Shown in pieces: positions 34,859 through 44,824 of a stretch of DNA of 64,000 nucleotides. Within the stretch, counting starts at the first letter, position 1; every line of letters starts with the position of its first letter. Where the stretch lies: the NCBI RefSeq assembly GCF_014696315.1, contig NZ_JACJPX010000001.1, positions 124,001 through 188,000 on the forward strand, read 5' to 3'. The translations under genes were made by a program, and so were the position numbers. This DNA comes from Calothrix membranacea FACHB-236 (GTDB lineage: Bacteria; Cyanobacteriota; Cyanobacteriia; Cyanobacteriales; Nostocaceae). Under the pieces are notes generated by a model. That model had not been told where the DNA came from and did not search any database. It saw only the letters and a program-made list of their open reading frames with translations.

Positions 34859-36718
34859 CTAACCAGGCCGCTGCTCAGTCAACACCTGATAAGCATAATT
34901 AAAATCATCAGTAGTGATTCTGATATCAGCCGGTACTGTCTGCCCTTGGGAACGGAAACGGCGAATTGCTTCTACAGCCGCTTGATTACACAGCAATGTT
35001 AAGTCTGCACCATTCCAGCCTTTGGTCATCTCTGCCCAATATTCCAAATCCACATCTTGTAGAGGTCGGCCTTGGCTATGAACTTTCAAGATTGACAGAC
35101 GGCTGCTGAGATCTGGTAGATCTACTTTCATTTGTAAATCTAAGCGTCCAGCACGTAATAAAGCTGGATCTAGAGCATCAGGTCTATTGGTGGCACCAAT
35201 TACTAAGATGGTAGTTCCCACTTGTAAACCATCTAATTCAGTGAGTAATTGACCAACTACGCGATCGCTTACTCCAGAATCACCATTGTAACTGCCTCGG
35301 GCTGGGGCTAATGTATCAATTTCATCAATAAATACTACGCAGGGGTCTGCTTGTCTGGCTTTAGCAAATAGTTCTCTTACTGCTTGTTCGCTGGCTCCCA
35401 CCCAACGGCTAAGTAATTCTGGGCCGTTGACACCAATAAAGTTGGCTCTGGCTTGGGAAGCTACAGCTTTGGCTAATAAGGTTTTACCAGTTCCCGGAGG
35501 CCCCCACAGTAATATGCCTTTGGGCGCTAGGGCTTTAGTTTGCAGATACAGTTCTGGATACAGTAACGCCCCTTCTACTGATTCACGCAGAGTTTGTTTA
35601 ATTGATTCCAAACCACCGATATCTTCCCAAGCTATATGGGGAACTTCAACTTCGACACTCCGCAGTACTGCCGGTTTGATTTCCTTCAGGCCTTGTAAAA
35701 AGTCTGACTGGTTAACAGTCATATTTTCTGGAACTTTTTCCTCAATCGAAGGAACGTGACGACGTAACGCAGTGTAAGCAGCTTTTTGACAAACAGCTTT
35801 CAAGTCAGCCCCCACAAATCCTACTGCTCTTTCAGCGATGAAATCCAGGTCAACTGTCCCATCTAAGGGCATAGCGCGGGTGAGAATTTGCAAAATCTCT
35901 TTGCGGCCGTTGCAGTCGGGGATGCGGAACTGAACTTCCCTATCAAATCTTCCTGGGCGGCGCAAAGCTGGATCAAGATGGTCGGGGCGATTTGTCGCCG
36001 CTAGGACAATTACACCTTGGCTGTGGGAGAAACCATCCATTAAACTCAATAGTTGCGCTACCAGGCGTTTTTCAACTTCCCCTTCTACAGCGCTACGGTC
36101 TGGAGCTAAACTATCAATTTCATCAATAAAGATAATACAGGGAGCATTTTTAGCAGCTTTCTCAAAAATTCCCCGTAGTCTTTGCTCGGCTTCACCGTAA
36201 TATTTACTGATGACTTCCGGCCCAACGAGGGCGATATAGTTAACGCCGAGTTCTTCAGCTAAAGCGCGGGCGGTGAGAGTTTTGCCTGTCCCAGGAGGCC
36301 CAACTAACAATACACCACGTGTAGGTTCTAGCCCTAGCTTTGCCAGAAGGTCAGGACGTTTTAAGGGAATGGCAATCAGTTCTTTGAGTTCTTTAAGAAC
36401 TTCACTCAATCCTCCAACATCTTTGAGGCTATAACCCGAAGGTGCATCAGGTGGGATTACAGATTCAGAACCTCCGCCATTACTGCTACCGCCATTACCA
36501 CCACCACCGGAATTAGCTGGGGGTTGAGTGCGGAAGCGACTAGTACCAACATCATTCGCCATATTATTGGGACGTGGCACATTCCCATAACGAGGAATAC
36601 TGCTCATCGGACGGGAATTAATTTGCACATCTGTTTTAATCTCGCCCTTTTCCACTTTTTCTTCTAGAGTTTTCACTAACTCTAAAAACTGCTCAAATCC
36701 CTTAAATAACTCACTCAT
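34859..36718 (-). CDS. Cdc48-like double AAA+ ATPase at the gas-vesicle locus
   Basis: A 619-residue cytosolic ATPase with two AAA+ modules. D1 (about 90-330) has Walker A GPPGTGKTLTA and Walker B IIFIDEIDSLAPDR; D2 (about 365-600) has GPPGTGKTLLA and VVFIDEIDTLAPARG; both have arginine-finger regions (RRPGRFDRE and RAGRLDLQ). The substrate-binding Cdc48 N-domain is missing. In its place are an amphipathic helix (SELFKGFEQFLELVKTLEEK) and a Gly/Ser-rich linker. The ATG at 36718 has GAGG about 7 bp upstream; a TTG at 36730 is less likely. It lies 47 bp after the ArsA/Get3-like gene and is probably co-transcribed. It likely unfolds or remodels a protein; a gas-vesicle substrate is inference. 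Confidence 0.88.
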   Translation of the reverse strand: MSELFKGFEQFLELVKTLEEKVEKGEIKTDVQINSRPMSSIPRYGNVPRPNNMANDVGTSRFRTQPPANSGGGGNGGSSNGGGSESVIPPDAPSGYSLKDVGGLSEVLKELKELIAIPLKRPDLLAKLGLEPTRGVLLVGPPGTGKTLTARALAEELGVNYIALVGPEVISKYYGEAEQRLRGIFEKAAKNAPCIIFIDEIDSLAPDRSAVEGEVEKRLVAQLLSLMDGFSHSQGVIVLAATNRPDHLDPALRRPGRFDREVQFRIPDCNGRKEILQILTRAMPLDGTVDLDFIAERAVGFVGADLKAVCQKAAYTALRRHVPSIEEKVPENMTVNQSDFLQGLKEIKPAVLRSVEVEVPHIAWEDIGGLESIKQTLRESVEGALLYPELYLQTKALAPKGILLWGPPGTGKTLLAKAVASQARANFIGVNGPELLSRWVGASEQAVRELFAKARQADPCVVFIDEIDTLAPARGSYNGDSGVSDRVVGQLLTELDGLQVGTTILVIGATNRPDALDPALLRAGRLDLQMKVDLPDLSSRLSILKVHSQGRPLQDVDLEYWAEMTKGWNGADLTLLCNQAAVEAIRRFRSQGQTVPADIRITTDDFNYAYQVLTEQRPG

Positions 36719-36765
36719 AAAATACCTCAATAGTTGACTTTAAAAATCCCAAATTCTTCTTGCAT

Positions 36766-38673
36766 TTAGCTGTTATTGGCAATTAATTCTTCAAATTCAA
36801 ATAACAGATGTGCTGCACATTGAATTCTTGCGATCGGCTCTACAGAACGTGGTAACTTAGGTAAGCGGATAATTGTTTGTTCTGGAAATAAACTGCTATC
36901 AACTTCCGCTTCTGGACTGTAGCGATTTTGCACCACATAAGGTTGATTAACTCCCATCTTTTTCAAAGATTGTGTTAATCGTATGTGTTCAGCAATAATT
37001 GCCGCTTCCGCCTGAATTACACCAACAAACTGCGTATCATGGGGATTTTTTAACTTCTTTTGTGCCTGCACAACTTGTTGCCGTAAACCCCGCAACCGCC
37101 CAATTACATCCACATGACCCAAAACATTTTGATATTTCATCCACAGCTTAAATATCCAGGTTAACCAATCTCCTAAAGCCGATGGCATTTCCAGAAAGCG
37201 TAGGAGATGGCCTGTAGGCGCTGTATCTAAAATAATTAAATCTTGTTGGTTACTATCTAATAGATCCATCACAGTGACAAGAGATAATATCTCATCAATG
37301 CCAGGCAAAGCTTGTGACATAATTTGTCGCCAAGCTTCTGGTAAGTAAGCAACATTTACTTGAGAATCTGTTTGCGAGTCTTCGCCACTAATCATATCTG
37401 CTAATTCCCACAGATAATCTGAGCGGAATTTGTCTAAAACTTTAGTTTCATCAACTTCTTGTCCGCTTAAATTAGCAGTTAGCATTACAGGCTCATGCCC
37501 TAAAGTTTGCCCAAAAGCATCTCCTAAAGAATGAGCCGGATCTATAGAAATTACCCGAATTTTTTTATGGGGATAATGCTGGGCACAAGCCCAAGCTATG
37601 GACGCTGCTACTGTTGTTTTACCTACACCTCCTTTCCCACCCACAATAATTAATTGACATCCTTGAGCTAAAAAATCACCAAAATTAGGCAAGATTTTAT
37701 TGGGCCATTGAATTATCGGTGGTGGTGCAATTTCAACATGATCGATTGTTTGAATTTGGGCAGCTAAACTATCTAACAACAAACCACCTAAAGGAGGTGT
37801 TTGTTGTTGCGGTACGATGAATACAGGTTTTTCAGGTGCTATCTGTAAGTATTTGTTGAGCAAATTTTGCTGTTCAGCATAACGGTCTGTTTCTAGTTCA
37901 TCATCTGCCAAGCAGCGATTGACGAATAATCCCGCATAGGGAACTTCTAAATCTTTTAAACTAGCTAAAAAGCGCTCAGTTTCTAACAAACACATCGGTT
38001 CCGAAACGGCGACTACTAAACAGCCAGTAAATTTTTCATCTTGCAGTAAGCGTCTGCCTTCTGCTAATTGAAATTTCATCTCTACCAAGAAGCGATCGAC
38101 ATCATCTTCTGTATAATTACCTCTAAAACTTTTGGTAATTACCCGATGCTTTTCTTGGAATAATTCAAAGGAATTTAAAATAACATCTAAAAAATCTTTT
38201 AATCGTAATAAATTTAATGTATGCCCAGAGGGAGCCATATCGAGAACTACCCGATCCACCTGCTTTTCTGAAAGTAGACGTTGGATTTCTAGCAAACCCA
38301 TGAGTTCGTTTAAACCAGGCCAATTTAAATCCCAAACTGGCGCTAAGTCTTCACCATCTGCTAAACTGCCTCTTTCAACAAGTAATTCTAAAAAGCGGCT
38401 ATATTTTGCTTTAAACTCCAACAGCAGTTTTTGGGCATCCAATGCCTGCACGCTCAAGTTAGGCAAATCGGCTAAGGGTGAAGCTGTATCTTTCACTTCT
38501 GAAAGTAAGACATCCCCTAAAGAATGTGCAGGATCTGTAGAAATTAACAAAATTCTTTCTTGAGGAAACTTTTTAGCCCAATAACGCGCAAAACTGCAAG
38601 AGATGGTGGTTTTACCAACCCCACCCTTGCCGCTGAACATGACTAAATTAAGTAAGTCGTAATGGTTCATCAT
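36766..38673 (-). CDS. Tandem ArsA/Get3-type ATPase at the gas-vesicle locus
   Basis: A 635-residue fusion of two SIMIBI-class ATPase units. Both have the deviant Walker A (FSGKGGVGKTT near residue 14; VGGKGGVGKTT near 338), switch I DPAHSLGD and switch II (DMAPSGHTLNLLR and DTAPTGHLLRFLE). Bacterial ArsA drives arsenite export with ArsB; eukaryotic Get3 carries tail-anchored proteins. No arsB or arsD is here, and the gene follows a GvpF/L-type gene by 37 bp and precedes an AAA+ ATPase. I infer a chaperone-like role for hydrophobic gas-vesicle proteins. The start is ATG 38673 (ATG 38670 also possible). Confidence 0.88.
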   Translation of the reverse strand: MMNHYDLLNLVMFSGKGGVGKTTISCSFARYWAKKFPQERILLISTDPAHSLGDVLLSEVKDTASPLADLPNLSVQALDAQKLLLEFKAKYSRFLELLVERGSLADGEDLAPVWDLNWPGLNELMGLLEIQRLLSEKQVDRVVLDMAPSGHTLNLLRLKDFLDVILNSFELFQEKHRVITKSFRGNYTEDDVDRFLVEMKFQLAEGRRLLQDEKFTGCLVVAVSEPMCLLETERFLASLKDLEVPYAGLFVNRCLADDELETDRYAEQQNLLNKYLQIAPEKPVFIVPQQQTPPLGGLLLDSLAAQIQTIDHVEIAPPPIIQWPNKILPNFGDFLAQGCQLIIVGGKGGVGKTTVAASIAWACAQHYPHKKIRVISIDPAHSLGDAFGQTLGHEPVMLTANLSGQEVDETKVLDKFRSDYLWELADMISGEDSQTDSQVNVAYLPEAWRQIMSQALPGIDEILSLVTVMDLLDSNQQDLIILDTAPTGHLLRFLEMPSALGDWLTWIFKLWMKYQNVLGHVDVIGRLRGLRQQVVQAQKKLKNPHDTQFVGVIQAEAAIIAEHIRLTQSLKKMGVNQPYVVQNRYSPEAEVDSSLFPEQTIIRLPKLPRSVEPIARIQCAAHLLFEFEELIANNS

Positions 38674-38710
38674 AAACCTAAGAATTTATAGCAACGCTGG
38701 TAAATAATAG

Positions 38711-39394
38711 TTAAACAAAGTGATAAGGAGGTAATCCTTCTCCTAAACAGAAATCCCAACGAGGGCAAGCTTCTTGCCAAGTTAAAAACTGTTCTAAAAA
38801 TAAAGGTTTATCTTCATGGTTGACTAAAAAGTAAACCCGAATTTCTTCGGCTTTCTCTTGGACAATAACGGCAGATTGATAAATTTCTGTGATGAGGTTA
38901 ATCAGACTAGATTTTTCATCAGCCTGTGCAATCATGTAAGCTTTTTGATTTTCAAAATGCTGTTTTTTTGCTAAAAAATAATCTCTACCTCCGCCCACAG
39001 GGGATTTTACAGGTTCTTGAAAAATTCGAGGCACGAGTTTTAAATTATATTCAGTTTTCCCGTGAATATAATCTAATTTCTCACGATACTCTGCACCGTG
39101 AGATTCTATATGCTTGAGTAATGTAGCTGGAGAAGCAAAAGAAGTACCGAAACGCAAAGGTAAAATTGTGGTTTGTTGAAATAGCTCACGAATAATGCGA
39201 TCGTGAGCTAAAACCATTTTGATAACTTGTTCATCATTATTTTGTACTGATTCTAAAGATATTCCTGGTTCGACAACGGCGGAAATACCAGAGCCATGAA
39301 TTAAGAATAATTGACCAGCATTACCCTCTGGTAAATTTAAGGGAATATCTGGGGTATTAAAAAAAGCATAAGTGTAGAGATTTAATGATTTCAT
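38711..39394 (-). CDS. gvpW: Gas vesicle protein of the GvpF/L family (GvpW-like)
   Basis: About 227 residues. The pattern is GvpF/L: LNLYTYAFFNTPDIPL at the start, then HDRIIRELFQQTTILPLRFGT in the middle, and a C-terminal ferredoxin-like part (VYFLVNHEDKPLFLEQF). These proteins are accessory assembly factors that contact GvpA. In Microcystis/Anabaena clusters the second GvpF-like gene after gvpG-gvpV is called gvpW; I use the name by position and family. The start is uncertain: ATG 39394 fits the family, while ATG 39448 and 39520 give longer tails. Confidence 0.75.
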   Translation of the reverse strand: MKSLNLYTYAFFNTPDIPLNLPEGNAGQLFLIHGSGISAVVEPGISLESVQNNDEQVIKMVLAHDRIIRELFQQTTILPLRFGTSFASPATLLKHIESHGAEYREKLDYIHGKTEYNLKLVPRIFQEPVKSPVGGGRDYFLAKKQHFENQKAYMIAQADEKSSLINLITEIYQSAVIVQEKAEEIRVYFLVNHEDKPLFLEQFLTWQEACPRWDFCLGEGLPPYHFV

Positions 39395-39541
39395 GCTGGC
39401 AACCAAATCGAAATGAGTGAGTTTTTTGTTTGTTTTTAGTGCATCCATACTGACACAAAATAAAAAAATATTAAATATATTTTTAGCCTTTACAATCAGA
39501 TTTTCTTGGTTATAATACAATCAATTGTTCAGGTAAATTAA

Positions 39542-39859
39542 ATGAAAATTCTTCGTAATCGCGGCACAATTAGACCTAAAGTAACTACTATGCCTCGTAG
39601 TAAGTCTGAAGCTTCTAGTCAATTAGAACTCTATAAACTAGTAACAGAACAGCAAAGAATTAAGCAGGAGTTACACTTTATAGAACAGCGCACAGTCATT
39701 TTAAAACAGCGTTTGAATTCTTTAAAAGACCAGATAGCAGACACCGAACAAAATATTAATAAATTACGCCAATCTGACCACAGACATCCTAATTTACCTA
39801 AGCGTCCTAATATCTTTTTTGAAGCTAACAATTACCAAGCTTTTGAAATTGAATATTAA
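39542..39859 (+). CDS. gvpV: Gas vesicle protein GvpV
   Basis: A 105-residue, basic, coiled-coil protein (KSEASSQLELYKLVTEQQRI, then RTVILKQRLNSLKDQIADTE). This matches the small GvpV of cyanobacterial gas-vesicle clusters, an accessory protein of unknown function. Here it is transcribed opposite to the rest of the cluster: divergent from gvpW (about 150 bp) and convergent with gvpG, with a shared terminator. ATG 39542 is taken; ATG 39590 is possible. Confidence 0.65.
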   Translation: MKILRNRGTIRPKVTTMPRSKSEASSQLELYKLVTEQQRIKQELHFIEQRTVILKQRLNSLKDQIADTEQNINKLRQSDHRHPNLPKRPNIFFEANNYQAFEIEY

Positions 39860-39910: not shown

Positions 39911-39937
39911 ATTAACCCGCGTATGCGGGTTTTTAAT
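39911..39937. terminator. Bidirectional terminator between gvpV and gvpG
   Basis: The stem AACCCGC / GCGGGTT with loop GTAT is flanked by A/T runs on both sides, in the gap between the convergent gvpV and gvpG genes. It marks the end of the main gvp operon. Confidence 0.8.
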
Positions 39938-39970: not shown

Positions 39971-40354
39971 TTAGGGAGATAAAACTAAATTTTCATTATC
40001 TTCATATTTTTTATTACCTCGAAATGCCTCTACAAGTACTTTATCTTCTTCAACTTCAGCTATGAAGTAAGTTGGCTCTACTTCATCCTCTTCATCCTCT
40101 GCTGATTCAGCTTCTAAACGGGCTTTTTCTTCTTCCAAAGCTTGAATTTTCAGTAGGAGTGCTTCTTCTTGCTCCTCAAATTCTTCTTCAGAAAGTTCGC
40201 CAATATCAAAGGAAAGTTGCAGACTGAGTAATTGTTTATGCAAATTTTCTTGTGCGTCAAATTCTGTATCAGTACGCTCTTGAATTTGTTCTCCAATCCA
40301 CATCAGCCCACTAATGGGCCCCATCACTGGAAATAGTAAAATCTTGCCAAGCAT
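39971..40354 (-). CDS. gvpG: Gas vesicle protein GvpG
   Basis: A 127-residue protein. The N-terminus LLFPVMGPISGLMWIGEQI is the GvpG signature, followed by a long acidic helix (DIGELSEEEFEEQEEALLLK) and an acidic tail. GvpG is a minor assembly protein that interacts with GvpA and GvpF. It is last in the leftward gvp operon, 14 bp after gvpF. The tail is longer than in some relatives. Confidence 0.9.
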   Translation of the reverse strand: MLGKILLFPVMGPISGLMWIGEQIQERTDTEFDAQENLHKQLLSLQLSFDIGELSEEEFEEQEEALLLKIQALEEEKARLEAESAEDEEDEVEPTYFIAEVEEDKVLVEAFRGNKKYEDNENLVLSP

Positions 40355-40368
40355 ATAATCACCTCCGA

Positions 40369-41103
40369 TTAAGAAATTTGAGCAAATGTATAAGGTGCAG
40401 TAAAATTGTTGTAGCGAATACGTAAGCGATCGCCAAATTTTTGGTCTATAGCTTCCACTCGTTGACTAAATAAAGCTTCGTTATCCCAAGGAATGAGAAA
40501 AGCCGCGTTGTAGATCATTTCTTCCATCATCGGTTCGCTTTCTACAACTTCTTCTGCTAAGGGCTGGAGTTCATCAAAGAAAGTTTTAATTACAGCTTCT
40601 TTGCGCTGTTGTAAATTACTTTCAATTAACTGGCCAATTTCAATAACTTCCTCCATACTCAAATTTTTGCCTTCCATCTGGTCGCGTTTTTGCTTCAATT
40701 CGGGATGAGACTGCATCATGGCTTGTAATTCCGCTTTGGTATCCCACAAAATTTTGACGCTGACTTCTCGTTTACCCGCCAATTTTTGAAACAGATCTCG
40801 CAGTTGTCGCTCACATGGTTGGATTAGTTGTGAAATTACTGTTTCCCAATTTTTCACAACTAATCCAAACCGCAGAGGTAGCAGAGTCCGAAAGCCTTCC
40901 TGCATTGCTTGCTCTAAAACTTTTTCATGGCTGATTAAATTCCGCCGCGAAGCTAAATATTTTTCTTGTTTCGCATCTGAGTATAAAAAGGTAAAACCTT
41001 CAATTACTTGGCTATAAACAGGTTGAGAATCCAGTCCCTTCAGGCTAACTGTTGGGGGAATTGGATCGGAAAAAATACCATACAAATAAAGACCAGCATC
41101 CAT
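40369..41103 (-). CDS. gvpF: Gas vesicle protein GvpF
   Basis: A 244-residue GvpF/L-family protein (start LYLYGIFSDPIPPTVSLKGL, then EQAMQEGFRTLLPLRFGLV, ending NFTAPYTFAQIS). Family structures show two domains; GvpF binds GvpA during shell growth. It lies between gvpK (6 bp) and gvpG (14 bp) in the operon. Confidence 0.92.
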   Translation of the reverse strand: MDAGLYLYGIFSDPIPPTVSLKGLDSQPVYSQVIEGFTFLYSDAKQEKYLASRRNLISHEKVLEQAMQEGFRTLLPLRFGLVVKNWETVISQLIQPCERQLRDLFQKLAGKREVSVKILWDTKAELQAMMQSHPELKQKRDQMEGKNLSMEEVIEIGQLIESNLQQRKEAVIKTFFDELQPLAEEVVESEPMMEEMIYNAAFLIPWDNEALFSQRVEAIDQKFGDRLRIRYNNFTAPYTFAQIS

Positions 41104-41109
41104 AAAAAA

Positions 41110-41592
41110 TTACTTTGTATTTAAAGGTTTTGAGGTTAAAACTAACCGCAATTTAGCGTGAATTAAATTGAGTTGAGCAACACCTAAATCTAGTTCTCCG
41201 TCCACCACAACTCCAGTGTTTAACAGACGGTCTAACAGTTCTAGTACAGACGGAGTATTTCCAGTTTCACCAGGATAATAAGATCCAGCAGCAGGTAAAA
41301 GGCTACCAAGCTCTCCTAAATGGATATTTAAGTCTGCTGGATCAATCTCAAAAATCTGACATAAATTTAAAACTTGTTCCTCTAACTTTCGCAAACTTTC
41401 TGCAGCTCGCTCTAAGTCAGATTCACTAAGGCACTCCTCTTCCATACGTCGGATTACTTGAGCTTCCATCAGCTGACGGATTAGTTCCACTACAGTTAAG
41501 AGTAAAGGAACTAAGCCAGCTTGGTTATTAGCTTTAGAATTGGTAGCTAGCAAATCGTTGGAATTTTCAGATGGAGTGCAAACCATTGCCAT
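41110..41592 (-). CDS. gvpK: Gas vesicle protein GvpK
   Basis: A 160-residue accessory protein. After a polar N-terminus of about 28 residues comes the GvpK core (GLVPLLLTVVELIRQLMEAQ, RRMEEECLSESDLERAAESL, then LDLGVAQLNLIHAKLRLVL). It is needed for vesicle formation, but its biochemical role is not settled. Operon spacing is 62 bp after gvpJ. Confidence 0.93.
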   Translation of the reverse strand: MAMVCTPSENSNDLLATNSKANNQAGLVPLLLTVVELIRQLMEAQVIRRMEEECLSESDLERAAESLRKLEEQVLNLCQIFEIDPADLNIHLGELGSLLPAAGSYYPGETGNTPSVLELLDRLLNTGVVVDGELDLGVAQLNLIHAKLRLVLTSKPLNTK

Positions 41593-41654: not shown

Positions 41655-42101
41655 CTACTCATTAGGCTGATAATTTATTGGCAATGGAACATTTTCTTCA
41701 TCGCTTTTGAGATCATCTTCAGCATTGACAGGGAATAACTCTGGATTGTTGATTTTAGCAGCAGTCAATGAACGTAACTGCGCTTCTAAACTTTCCAGCC
41801 GTTGCTGAAGTTGTTGGTTTTCTTCAACTAAACGTTGAGATTTGCTACTGAGGTAAGGGTCATTTTCCCACCAATTAATGCCCAATTCTTTAGCTTTATC
41901 AACGGAGGAAATTAATAAGCGAATGCGGATATGAAGAAGTTCGGTGGAGGCGATAGATACAGAAATATCACCAGCAATCACAATCCCTTTATCTAAAACT
42001 CGCTCGAGAATATCTGCCAAGGTAGAACCTTGTGTAGATGTCGTAATAGCTCGACTTGAGTTAGATTGAGGACGTGTTGGCAGGATGGGTGTAGTAGTCA
42101 C
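41655..42101 (-). CDS. gvpJ: Gas vesicle protein GvpJ (GvpA-like)
   Basis: A 148-residue protein. Residues about 25-75 are GvpA-like (TLADILERVLDKGIVIAGDI, then IRIRLLISSVDKA). The C-terminal half is a coiled coil and acidic tail absent from GvpA. GvpJ is a minor shell or tip component that helps nucleation. In Microcystis and Anabaena flos-aquae a gvpX gene follows gvpJ; here gvpK follows directly. Confidence 0.92.
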   Translation of the reverse strand: MTTTPILPTRPQSNSSRAITTSTQGSTLADILERVLDKGIVIAGDISVSIASTELLHIRIRLLISSVDKAKELGINWWENDPYLSSKSQRLVEENQQLQQRLESLEAQLRSLTAAKINNPELFPVNAEDDLKSDEENVPLPINYQPNE

Positions 42102-42170: not shown

Positions 42171-43217
42171 TTAGTTGGGTTGGTCGCTTAATAAGCTGTC
42201 GTCTAGTGTCACTGGTTCTGCGATCGCATCTGTTTGTGGTTCTGCTTCACCAACTATTTCAGCCTCTGCCACATCATAGGGATCGCTATCATCAACTGGC
42301 TCTACTGGTTTTACTTGTACGTGGTTGAGCAATTGCAGAAATAGCGTTGTAGCATCGCTGGCAGATAAATTGGTGCGATTAAATAAAACATCTGCACAAA
42401 TTTCTCTAAAATCGGAATTTTCAGGTGTGACTAAAATTTCATGTTCTGCACACACTTTTGCAACCATCAAACAAGACCGCAATCCAGAAGTTTTCTCTGC
42501 ACCAGTCGCAGCACGGAATGCTTTGACTAAGCGTACAACTAACTGAGCATAATGGTGATTAATGCCGGTTTTATGAGTTAAAATTTCAATCTGAGTTTGC
42601 TCATCTGGTTCTGGCATATTAATCGTTACCAACCGATCCATTAAAGCATCTTGAGTGGAGTGAACTCCGCAATATTCTTCTGGATTGGAAGTGAAAATAG
42701 CCCGGAATTTGGGGTGAACATGTAAATATTCGGGCTGATTACTGCTAGGAGGAAGGGTGAGAATTTTTTCTTCTAAGGCTGAAAGCAAAACGTTATTTAC
42801 TTCTGGTCGTGAACGGTTAAACTCGTCGTAAACCAGGGTTAAACCTTCGCGACAAGCTAAAGTTAAGCGAGAATCAACCCAATTTTGTTTGAGTTCGTCT
42901 TCAACTTTAAGAACGTTGTGAATGTAATTGTCTAATAATTTTTTATGTGTATAGCCAGACTCGCTGCCGATTAAATCAGAACTTTTAAATTCGTCATCTC
43001 CGAAAATCAACATGATTGGTCTATCTAGACAATTAGCTAAATGCATAGCTAAAGTCGTTTTACCTGTACCAGCCGGCCCGCGTAAATGAATAGCAAATCC
43101 TGAGGTGAGATAACGCAACGCTCGAATTGCTACTTTTTCAATAGCTGGTGTGACCACAAACTGACCAGGACGGACACGAAGAACAGCTCTTTTTTTATGA
43201 TTTTCGCTATTAGTCAT
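42171..43217 (-). CDS. gvpN: Gas vesicle MoxR-type AAA+ ATPase GvpN
   Basis: A 348-residue AAA+ ATPase. Walker A is [17 protein letters not shown], Walker [21 protein letters not shown], and sensor 1 [15 protein letters not shown]. GvpN is needed for vesicles to grow to full width. The C-terminal tail (about 290-348) is acidic and low-complexity. A 366-bp gap with a stable hairpin separates it from gvpC. Confidence 0.94.
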
Positions 43218-43583: not shown

Positions 43584-44072
43584 CTAAAATGTACCAAAAA
43601 TGCTAGCAAACAAATCCTGACGGAATTGATGCAGCTGTTGTCTTTGTTCTTGAGCTTGCGCCATTCTTTCTTTAGCTGTGTCGGCTAAAAATTCATTGGT
43701 GGTTTGCTCAAGGTTTTGATGGAACTCGTGCAGTTGTCGCGCTTGCTCTTGAGCTTGCGCCATTCTTTCTTTAGCAGTCTCTGACAAAAACTCTTGGGTG
43801 TTTTCTGCCATTTCCTTATGGAATTGGTACAGATTTTCAGCCTGTTGTTTTGCTTGTTCCATTCTTTCTTTAGCAGTTTGTGCTAAAAATTCCTCGGTGT
43901 TTTGCTCAAGGTTTTGATGGAACTCATGCAGATTTTCTGCTTGTTCTTTAGCTTGCGCTGTTCTTTGCGCTGTAGTCACGGACAAGAATTCTTGAGTCTC
44001 TTTAAATAGTTGAGTTACTTCCTCAGCTATTCCTCGATGTTCTTGCCGGATTCTGATCATTAAAGGAGTCAT
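43584..44072 (-). CDS. gvpC: Gas vesicle outer-surface protein GvpC
   Basis: A 162-residue alpha-helical protein that wraps the outside of the GvpA shell and stiffens it. There are four 33-residue repeats (TQEFLSxTTAxRxAQAKEQ, [20 protein letters not shown] and variants) and the conserved end [11 protein letters not shown]. Anabaena flos-aquae GvpC has five repeats, so this one is shorter by one. I place the start at ATG 44072 ([18 protein letters not shown]), with GGAGA upstream, matching known GvpC N-termini. The longer frame to 44117 is unlikely. Confidence 0.93.
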
Positions 44073-44233
44073 GATTTTCTCCGCAATCATACTAAAATCA
44101 TTGTGAATCTGCCACATTTCTTGGAGGGTTTATATCCAGCAAATGTGGCTCAAGCAATATCTGCCTTTTTCTTTTTATCCTCAGATAAATCTTGCTTAAA
44201 GAATATCTGGATAATCAGAGAAAAGCAGTATAA

Positions 44234-44285: not shown

Positions 44286-44501
44286 TTAAGCAGGCATAGC
44301 TGCAGATTGAGTTAGACCAACAGCTTCTGCATACTTCAAGTATGTTTCAACGGAAGCGATAACGATCCGAGCTTCAATAGCAAGTAGTTCAATACCAACT
44401 AAGGAAACACGTACCCAAGCATCTACAACGATACCTTTGTCTAAAATGCGGTCGATAACTTCTGCCAAGCTAGAGGAGGAATTAGTCTTTTCAACTGCCA
44501 T
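44286..44501 (-). CDS. gvpA: Gas vesicle structural protein GvpA, copy 2
   Basis: The 71-residue main shell protein. It has the universal GvpA pattern ([53 protein letters not shown]). It forms the hydrophobic-inside rib wall. It differs from copy 1 in one residue near the C-terminus (Met for Val) but at several silent sites. Confidence 0.97.
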
Positions 44502-44608: not shown

Positions 44609-44824
44609 TTAAGCAGGTACTGCGGCTGACTGAGTTAGACCAACAGCTTCTGCATATTTCAAATATGTTTCAACAGAAGCGATAACGATCCGAGCTTCAA
44701 TAGCAAGTAATTCAATACCAACTAGAGATACACGTACCCAAGCATCTACAACGATACCTTTGTCTAAGATACGATCAATAACTTCTGCCAAGCTTGAAGA
44801 GGAATTAGTTTTTTCGACTGCCAT
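44609..44824 (-). CDS. gvpA: Gas vesicle structural protein GvpA, copy 1
   Basis: The 71-residue main shell protein and first gene of the leftward operon, so the most highly expressed. Same features as copy 2. A second copy raises dose; silent differences with kept protein sequence show strong purifying selection. Confidence 0.97.

Follow-up and report, generated by a model that had tools for sequence, protein, structure and literature searches.

Beyond the gas-vesicle (gvp) genes of the cyanobacterium Calothrix membranacea FACHB-236 lie the genes of two ATPases, one of the ArsA/Get3 type and one resembling the AAA+ protein Cdc48. Do they belong to the gas-vesicle system, and what could they do there? 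We analysed a window of 64,000 nucleotides (assembly GCF_014696315.1, contig NZ_JACJPX010000001.1, positions 124,001-188,000 of the forward strand), and Calothrix coordinates refer to this window. In it, gvpW, which encodes a second GvpL/GvpF family protein (ATG 39394 to 38711, minus strand; PF06386, 107 bits), is followed by the gene for a two-unit ArsA/Get3-type ATPase of gas-vesicle type with 635 amino acids (36766..38673, minus strand; two PF02374 matches, 339 bits). Next to it lies the gene for a Cdc48/VAT-like double-ring AAA+ ATPase with 619 amino acids (ATG 36718 to 34859, minus strand; two PF00004 matches, 310 bits). All three genes run in one direction, with intergenic gaps of 37 bp and 47 bp. 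Open reading frames, Pfam and NCBIfam agree on this arrangement, which had been described in a sequence-only reading of the same DNA. That reading placed the trio directly beyond gvpG and gvpV; the location is correct, while the shared direction does not extend to gvpV, which lies on the plus strand. We consider it rather probable, from sequence comparison, that both ATPases are dedicated gas-vesicle factors, a fused Get3-type holdase and a docked unfoldase that act on gas-vesicle proteins.

One set of 291 genomes from the order was searched with ArsA, the AAA+ protein and GvpK. ArsA and AAA+ (E up to 1e-150) were each detected in 77 genomes, ArsA with a full-length match in 72 of them; GvpK passed its cut-off in 75, and 74 genomes contain all three. 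The homologues are not equally common in strains without vesicle genes. ArsA occurs in 75/75 and AAA+ in 74/75 of the GvpK-positive genomes, compared to 2/216 and 3/216 of the GvpK-negative ones. In four of the 75 (G008, G096, G167, G180), ArsA is present only as pieces; the one genome without AAA+ is G033. ArsA without GvpK above the cut-off is seen in G037, which has gvpA-family matches, and as pieces in G091; AAA+ without GvpK above the cut-off is seen in G037, G174 and, as a partial match, G178. These counts exclude ArsA matches weaker than 7.3e-40, two sub-cut-off GvpK matches (G105, G144) and the extra GvpK copies of G126, G190 and G153. Among the matches listed, the next ArsA matches are at 2.7e-25 or weaker and span about 200 or fewer query residues, with the exception of one short fragment in a GvpK-positive genome.

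A second sample of 194 genomes represents the phylum. It overlaps the first; of its 31 genomes with GvpK, 8 belong to other orders. AAA+ is present in 30 genomes, every one of them with GvpK, and only G033 has GvpK without AAA+. ArsA is present in 29 of the 31, missing from G421 and from the 64%-complete G329. In the 163 GvpK-negative genomes, neither AAA+ nor ArsA is found. The weakest AAA+ match is 1e-120 at a search threshold of 1e-70, so this orthologue is well separated from other AAA proteins. Seven genera (g2, g5, g7, g16, g27, g83 and g93) mix GvpK-positive and GvpK-negative members. Among the genomes listed for these genera, ArsA tracks GvpK without exception, and AAA+ does so except in G033.

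The three genes are often, yet not always, neighbours. In 46/74 genomes, no more than 20 kb separate ArsA, AAA+ and GvpK. In 27/74 genomes, ArsA and GvpK are more than 20 kb apart or on different contigs. Seven of these 27 carry all three genes on one contig, far apart (G040, G056, G099, G126, G170, G190, G200); the remaining 20 have ArsA and GvpK on separate contigs, which for some may be due to assembly breaks. In G298, ArsA and AAA+ are arranged head to head and gvpK is about 316 kb distant. In G310, ArsA and AAA+ are 33 kb apart and gvpK is half a megabase away, and in G408 all three are separate. Linkage alone does not account for the association. The tie of both ATPases to gas vesicles, as the sequence-only reading had claimed it, is thus strongly supported by co-occurrence that is independent of linkage. 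Decaying copies were also found. In G167 and G180, gvpA and gvpJ look lost because the sole GvpA-family match adjoins the GvpK match; of ArsA a fragment is left, and AAA+ is broken, on another contig. In G091, ArsA and gvpW survive as pieces. Such relics are consistent with a shared fate of the ATPases and the gvp genes. As a separate observation, G152 contains two gvp modules (L065, L066) that both include an ArsA and an AAA+ gene of their own, and a further AAA+ copy, the third, lies on another contig.

In the Calothrix ArsA, the P-loop GKGGVGKT and the DPAHS motif each occur twice, as in most relatives; one cyanobacterial row has DPAHS only once, and shortened rows miss one motif. CbiA and ParA Pfam matches place the protein in the deviant Walker A superfamily. 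In the ArsA tree, from which the single-unit ArsA of L151 was omitted, a branch with 100/100 support splits 17 cyanobacterial and 9 other gas-vesicle ArsA from 3 arsenical ArsA. Three cysteine columns of the arsenical proteins are empty in 26/26 gas-vesicle ArsA (0/17 and 0/9), and one of the three arsenical reference rows itself lacks the first cysteine. We take these columns to be the metal ligands in E. coli ArsA numbering, and the Get3 groove positions are likewise assumed.

In place of arsenical marks, the gas-vesicle proteins show features of Get3. After switch II, a hydrophobic stretch follows in half 1 (residues 156-182; 38128..38208, minus strand) and in half 2 (residues 494-525; 37099..37194, minus strand), the latter aligned with the Get3 region. 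The stretch of the gas-vesicle ArsA aligns with Get3 in the TRC40 insert region. It is of full length in the 17 cyanobacterial and 9 other gas-vesicle proteins and shorter in the 3 arsenical ones. In half 2, it comprises 32 residues versus 14.7 in arsenical ArsA, with a mean hydropathy of 0.29 versus -1.10; in half 1, the values are 27 versus 18.3 residues and 0.07 versus -0.41. A CxxC motif is found in 8/9 non-cyanobacterial gas-vesicle ArsA at the archaeal Get3 CxxC site, clearly in both halves for six of the eight and with a second motif in one more. At the Get3 site, CxxC is absent from Calothrix ArsA and from 17/17 cyanobacterial rows. Hydrophobic insert and CxxC are described as marks of Get3, the insert being unlike ArsA, and some Get3 proteins lack CxxC (PMC10248533).

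For the AAA+ protein, the best NCBIfam model is CDC48 (TIGR01243) with 674 bits, below the cut-off of 803, and the general model PRK03992 is just passed (513 versus a cut-off of 500). Its best solved relatives are VCP-like ATPases, aligned from residue ~98 to 592. The key residues of Walker A/B, pore loop and arginine finger show little or no variation across 29 aligned rows, including Calothrix, out of over 80 found, and the pore loop of ring 1 is KYYG. The Cdc48 N-domain (PF02359, PF02933) is not among the best 25 of 39 Pfam matches. Residues 1-97 do not align to solved relatives and appear in the fold model as a single helix with disorder; this model has a pLDDT (predicted local distance difference test) of 76.7, with helix 2-22 at low confidence. 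The first ~48 residues are conserved (residues 1-48; 36575..36718, minus strand) and consist of an amphipathic helix followed by IPxxxxIP, a motif present in 27/29 rows. We propose this peptide as a docking element. The Gly-rich linker after it is variable. The sequence-only reading was right on the missing N-domain and on the presence of helix and linker; a docking role of the linker is not supported. The AAA+ of G174 lacks the conserved N-terminal motif (consensus identity 0.48 in the N-terminus versus 0.84 in the core), and that of L073 also lacks the strict motif; several N-termini score low because their match starts later.

The N-terminal helix matches that of GvpH, the gas-vesicle Hsp20, with an hhalign probability of 70-88% and P of 4e-5 to 3e-6, for profiles of 12/29 AAA+ rows and 9 GvpH sequences that were picked after the likeness had been seen. 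The score of 27.6-32.5 compares to 9.1 for the reversed profile and to a best of 14.9 in 200 column shuffles, of which 0/200 reach it. Windows of the AAA+ protein itself gave scores of 17.7 or less, and 424 comparisons with windows of nine cluster proteins gave 15.4 or less. Three GvpH/Hsp20 queries had no match in the cyanobacterial loci examined. For haloarchaeal GvpH, interaction with both GvpF and GvpL is reported, and a role in preventing GvpM aggregation has been suggested (PMC7688916). From this interaction, GvpF or GvpW is the predicted dock for the peptide of the AAA+ protein.

Cdc48-like partners also occur in gvp clusters of four other phyla. The gvp cluster of a Methylosinus plasmid ends with a full Cdc48 that includes the N-domain according to Pfam. 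Other such clusters also hold full-length Cdc48, judged beyond Methylosinus by length and match range. With the Methylosinus Cdc48 as query, the genome collection yielded 33 loci; three weak gammaproteobacterial matches were set aside. The Cdc48 match is flanked by gvp genes in L082-L090 and L092 and by a GvpL-like match in L098; there are no gvp genes beside it in the bacterial loci L101, L105 and L106 nor in the archaeal loci. In L089, Cdc48 and ArsA both lie inside one gvp cluster. As L082-L090 and L092 were found via Cdc48 and are biased towards it, 28 gvp loci were picked by GvpK alone: 9 from 178 genomes of the phylum of a Syntrophobacterales genome (Thermodesulfobacteriota in NCBI), 18 from 150 Chloroflexota and 1 from 189 Pseudomonadota, with the search centres G430 and G422 and the sub-cut-off match G835 left out. 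In the stretches read, ArsA is present in 9 of the 28, Cdc48 in 10, both in 1 and either in 18. In L137, ArsA is 6 kb away from the gvp genes. ArsA and Cdc48 look like alternatives in this sample, and cyanobacteria mostly keep both. Several loci of other phyla have the ArsA or Cdc48 gene placed between gvp genes.

A single clade for all Cdc48 of gvp clusters was supported by 92/83 in a first tree and is not supported in a larger one. There, two Syntrophobacterales proteins without nearby gvp genes fall among the gvp-cluster Cdc48, and row L129 is very long. We therefore make no claim of a single Cdc48 origin. In viral contigs, no ArsA match was found, and 14 AAA relatives have 27-45% identity. 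Some further features of these clusters deserve mention. An uncharacterised protein of ~190 amino acids without a Pfam match is encoded in many gvp clusters outside cyanobacteria, in most cases next to Cdc48 (L040 11080-11661; also L082-L090, L135 and L156). A single-unit Get3/ArsA protein of ~321 amino acids is encoded between gvpF and gvpG in a Chloroflexota cluster (L151 13355-14320). For Methylocella tundrae, the Cdc48 region is annotated as several pieces (L039 20223-22432), and in another assembly (L083) it is one continuous match.

On the other side of gvpW, the Calothrix cluster holds further gvp genes. gvpV (39542..39859, plus strand) is an open reading frame without a Pfam match, assigned from its placement and its reversed orientation as in related clusters; the name is taken from the gene order in PMC7204071. 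It is reversed in 8/8 clusters with the Calothrix layout (L036, L062-L065, L067, L068, L081). A terminator-like hairpin lies between gvpG and gvpV (39914..39931, plus strand), and a promoter-like site with 11/12 matches lies before gvpV (39489..39516, plus strand). Both are weak alone: 10 terminator-like sites were found in the region versus 5.0 expected, and 9 promoter-like sites versus 13.6. gvpV, on the opposite strand between gvpG and gvpW, and the hairpin suggest that gvpW, arsA and the AAA+ gene probably form a transcription unit separate from gvpA to gvpG. On the minus strand follow gvpG (39971..40354; PF05120), gvpF (40369..41103; NF052351, 391 bits), gvpK (41110..41592; PF05121 and a C-terminal GvpA-like domain, PF00741), gvpJ (41655..42101; PF00741, with NF046090 below the cut-off), gvpN, the already known gas-vesicle AAA+ ATPase (42171..43217; TIGR02640, 412 bits), gvpC (43584..44117; TIGR02641) and two gvpA copies (44286-44501 and 44609-44824; open reading frames, PF00741 matches in the genome). 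With its GvpA-like domain, GvpK may itself be a hydrophobic, shell-like client, and PF00741 matches adjoin the GvpK match in several relatives too. A third gvpA copy is located on another contig (L004 1432-1647, contig 10 of G000). Its protein is identical to that of the copy at 44286-44501, and no other gvp genes were noticed among the open reading frames of the 3.1 kb read there.

How could the two ATPases act? The ArsA-like protein would be a fused Get3-type dimer that ATP opens and closes over a hydrophobic helical groove. A small, greasy client (GvpA, GvpJ or the GvpA-like C-terminus of GvpK) would in this way be kept soluble up to its use. The AAA+ protein would be an unfoldase of the Cdc48/VAT type in which the general N-domain is swapped for the GvpH-like peptide. 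This peptide would dock it on a gas-vesicle accessory protein, with GvpF or GvpW as best guesses, and the unfoldase would pull apart trapped, misassembled or surplus gas-vesicle proteins for reuse. Groove, clients and docking partner are inferred, as is the kind of work, be it assembly, repair or turnover. The sequence-only suggestion that the pair chaperones or recycles shell proteins is the most plausible mechanism, and the Get3-like marks and the GvpH-like peptide lend it support. Only tentatively do we extend it to organelle-specific delivery and extraction, in which the fused Get3 would carry shell proteins and the Cdc48-type unfoldase would be re-aimed via the GvpH docking peptide.

Several points weigh against dedicated gas-vesicle factors of this kind. 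G033 has gvp genes and ArsA without AAA+, G421 has gvp genes and AAA+ without ArsA, and G174 has an intact lone AAA+ without gvp genes. Given these exceptions, neither ATPase is strictly obligatory. Outside cyanobacteria, 10/28 of the GvpK-picked loci have neither ArsA nor Cdc48 in the stretch read, several of them at contig ends, and 3/5 plasmid gvp clusters read by annotation carry neither gene. Fisher tests on the order-sample counts ignore kinship. The likeness to GvpH covers 22-30 columns, was sought after it had been seen by eye and could be convergent. The single-sequence fold of ArsA reached a pLDDT of 39.7 and was too poor to be used, so the hydrophobic groove is a prediction from sequence alignment. 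Finally, gas vesicles form without the ATPase pair: gvpABC, NJKFG and VW of Anabaena PCC 7120 gave floating E. coli cells with irregular vesicles (PMC7204071). The irregular shape may stem from the partly degenerated cluster of PCC 7120.

Other explanations have to be weighed against this. The pair could act in removal, where AAA+ would dismantle vesicles or clear unneeded Gvp complexes when buoyancy is lost and ArsA would catch the released shell protein. Cdc48 relatives are extraction and disassembly machines. The probable separate transcription unit would permit a timing of its own, and ArsA and AAA+ adjoin each other away from gvpK in G298 and G047. However, the joint decay with gvpA in G167 and G180 fits assembly equally well, and the position of ArsA or Cdc48 between gvp genes in several other-phylum loci is like that of assembly genes. 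We regard removal as unlikely. Considerably less probable is a role of the ArsA-like protein in spacing or segregating vesicles, as a positioning ATPase akin to MinD/ParA, with AAA+ as a general stress protein. Its CbiA and ParA matches indicate a shared superfamily, and a ParA-like gene follows gvpO in the gvp cluster of Haloplanus (L061 13268-14032). The two-unit ArsA/Get3 build, the client-type hydrophobic stretches and CxxC in other phyla speak against positioning, and AAA+ tracks gvp about as tightly as ArsA does.

A mere neighbour effect, in which the genes are caught in a gas-vesicle island and lost and gained by linkage, would account for the close spacing in 46/74 genomes and for the 35.8-kb Nostoc sphaeroides plasmid that carries the whole gvp-gvpW-arsA-AAA+ block (L036, NZ_CP031945.1), a possible route of spread. 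The association persists, however, in the 27/74 genomes that show no linkage of ArsA and GvpK at 20 kb, and within the seven mixed genera ArsA and, except for G033, AAA+ follow GvpK. We consider linkage as sole explanation highly improbable. An arsenite export ATPase that lies beside gvp by chance would agree with the family annotation as ArsA, and a Nodularia gene beside gvpW is listed among arsenate-related genes (PMC3610870). We reject this reading on the empty cysteine columns in 26/26 proteins, and consider it close to discounted: the NCBIfam arsenical models are far below their cut-off for Calothrix ArsA, and ArsA co-occurs with gvp. The immediate neighbours are gvpW and AAA+, and the annotated plasmid copy shows no ars gene. 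The sequence-only reading had argued against arsenite export from the absence of arsB. There is no arsB beside the Calothrix arsA, with the rest of the genome not searched for it; this is a weak argument, for which the missing metal-binding cysteines are the better substitute.

The link between ArsA and gvp is not new. ArsA in gvp clusters was reported in 2010 and proposed to energise vesicle biogenesis (Castillo and Saier, PMC2963123), and in the Nodularia genome an ArsA gene is numbered directly after the gvp stretch (PMC3610870). The available part of PMC2963123 does not mention a Cdc48-like partner, linkage-free co-occurrence, a GvpH-like peptide or CxxC. In the open-licence literature, no paper on the link between Cdc48 and gvp was found by title or abstract start. 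The same literature, as searched, gave neither the GvpH-like peptide, the Get3 marks on gas-vesicle ArsA and the linkage-free evidence nor a report of a vesicle phenotype on deletion of either ATPase gene. The question at stake is how the hydrophobic GvpA stays soluble and enters the growing shell. GvpF, GvpG and GvpN are described as current candidates for keeping it or building it in (PMC11445434). Two ATPases that track gvp even when unlinked would extend the parts list of gas vesicles and be relevant to their engineering as imaging agents. The pair might also explain the irregular vesicles formed from a cyanobacterial gvp set in E. coli (PMC7204071).

Compared to known systems, the gas-vesicle ArsA resembles Get3/TRC40 in its deviant Walker A, the DPAHS switch I, the APTGH-type switch II and the hydrophobic stretch after switch II, and most non-cyanobacterial members share CxxC. 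It differs in that two units are fused and tied to gvp, and the cyanobacterial members lack CxxC. Get3/TRC40 here comprises yeast and archaeal Get3 as well as Get3d of photosynthetic organisms (PMC10248533). With the arsenical ArsA that works with ArsB/ArsD, it shares the two fused units and a common fold family, but it lacks the arsenical cysteines, has extra hydrophobic stretches and gvp neighbours and is set apart from the three arsenical ArsA compared by the 100/100 branch. Calothrix ArsA belongs to the group that Castillo and Saier 2010 named 'cluster 4 and 6', described as two-unit proteins of gvp operons with cyanobacteria included (PMC2963123). The cyanobacterial AAA+ has the two AAA rings with intact motifs of Cdc48/p97/VAT (VCP-like) proteins, and a short conserved peptide with a variable linker instead of the N-domain. 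With GvpH it shares a similar N-terminal helix, whereas GvpH continues into an Hsp20 domain and the AAA+ protein into two ATPase rings. GvpN is likewise an AAA+ ATPase of the gvp cluster, but of another AAA+ branch (best Pfam match PF07728), and both are present. If the tentative extension to organelle-specific delivery and extraction is right, the pair would correspond, in bacteria, to the Get3 and Cdc48/Msp1 machinery of eukaryotic membranes; gvp clusters from at least five phyla carry one or both components.

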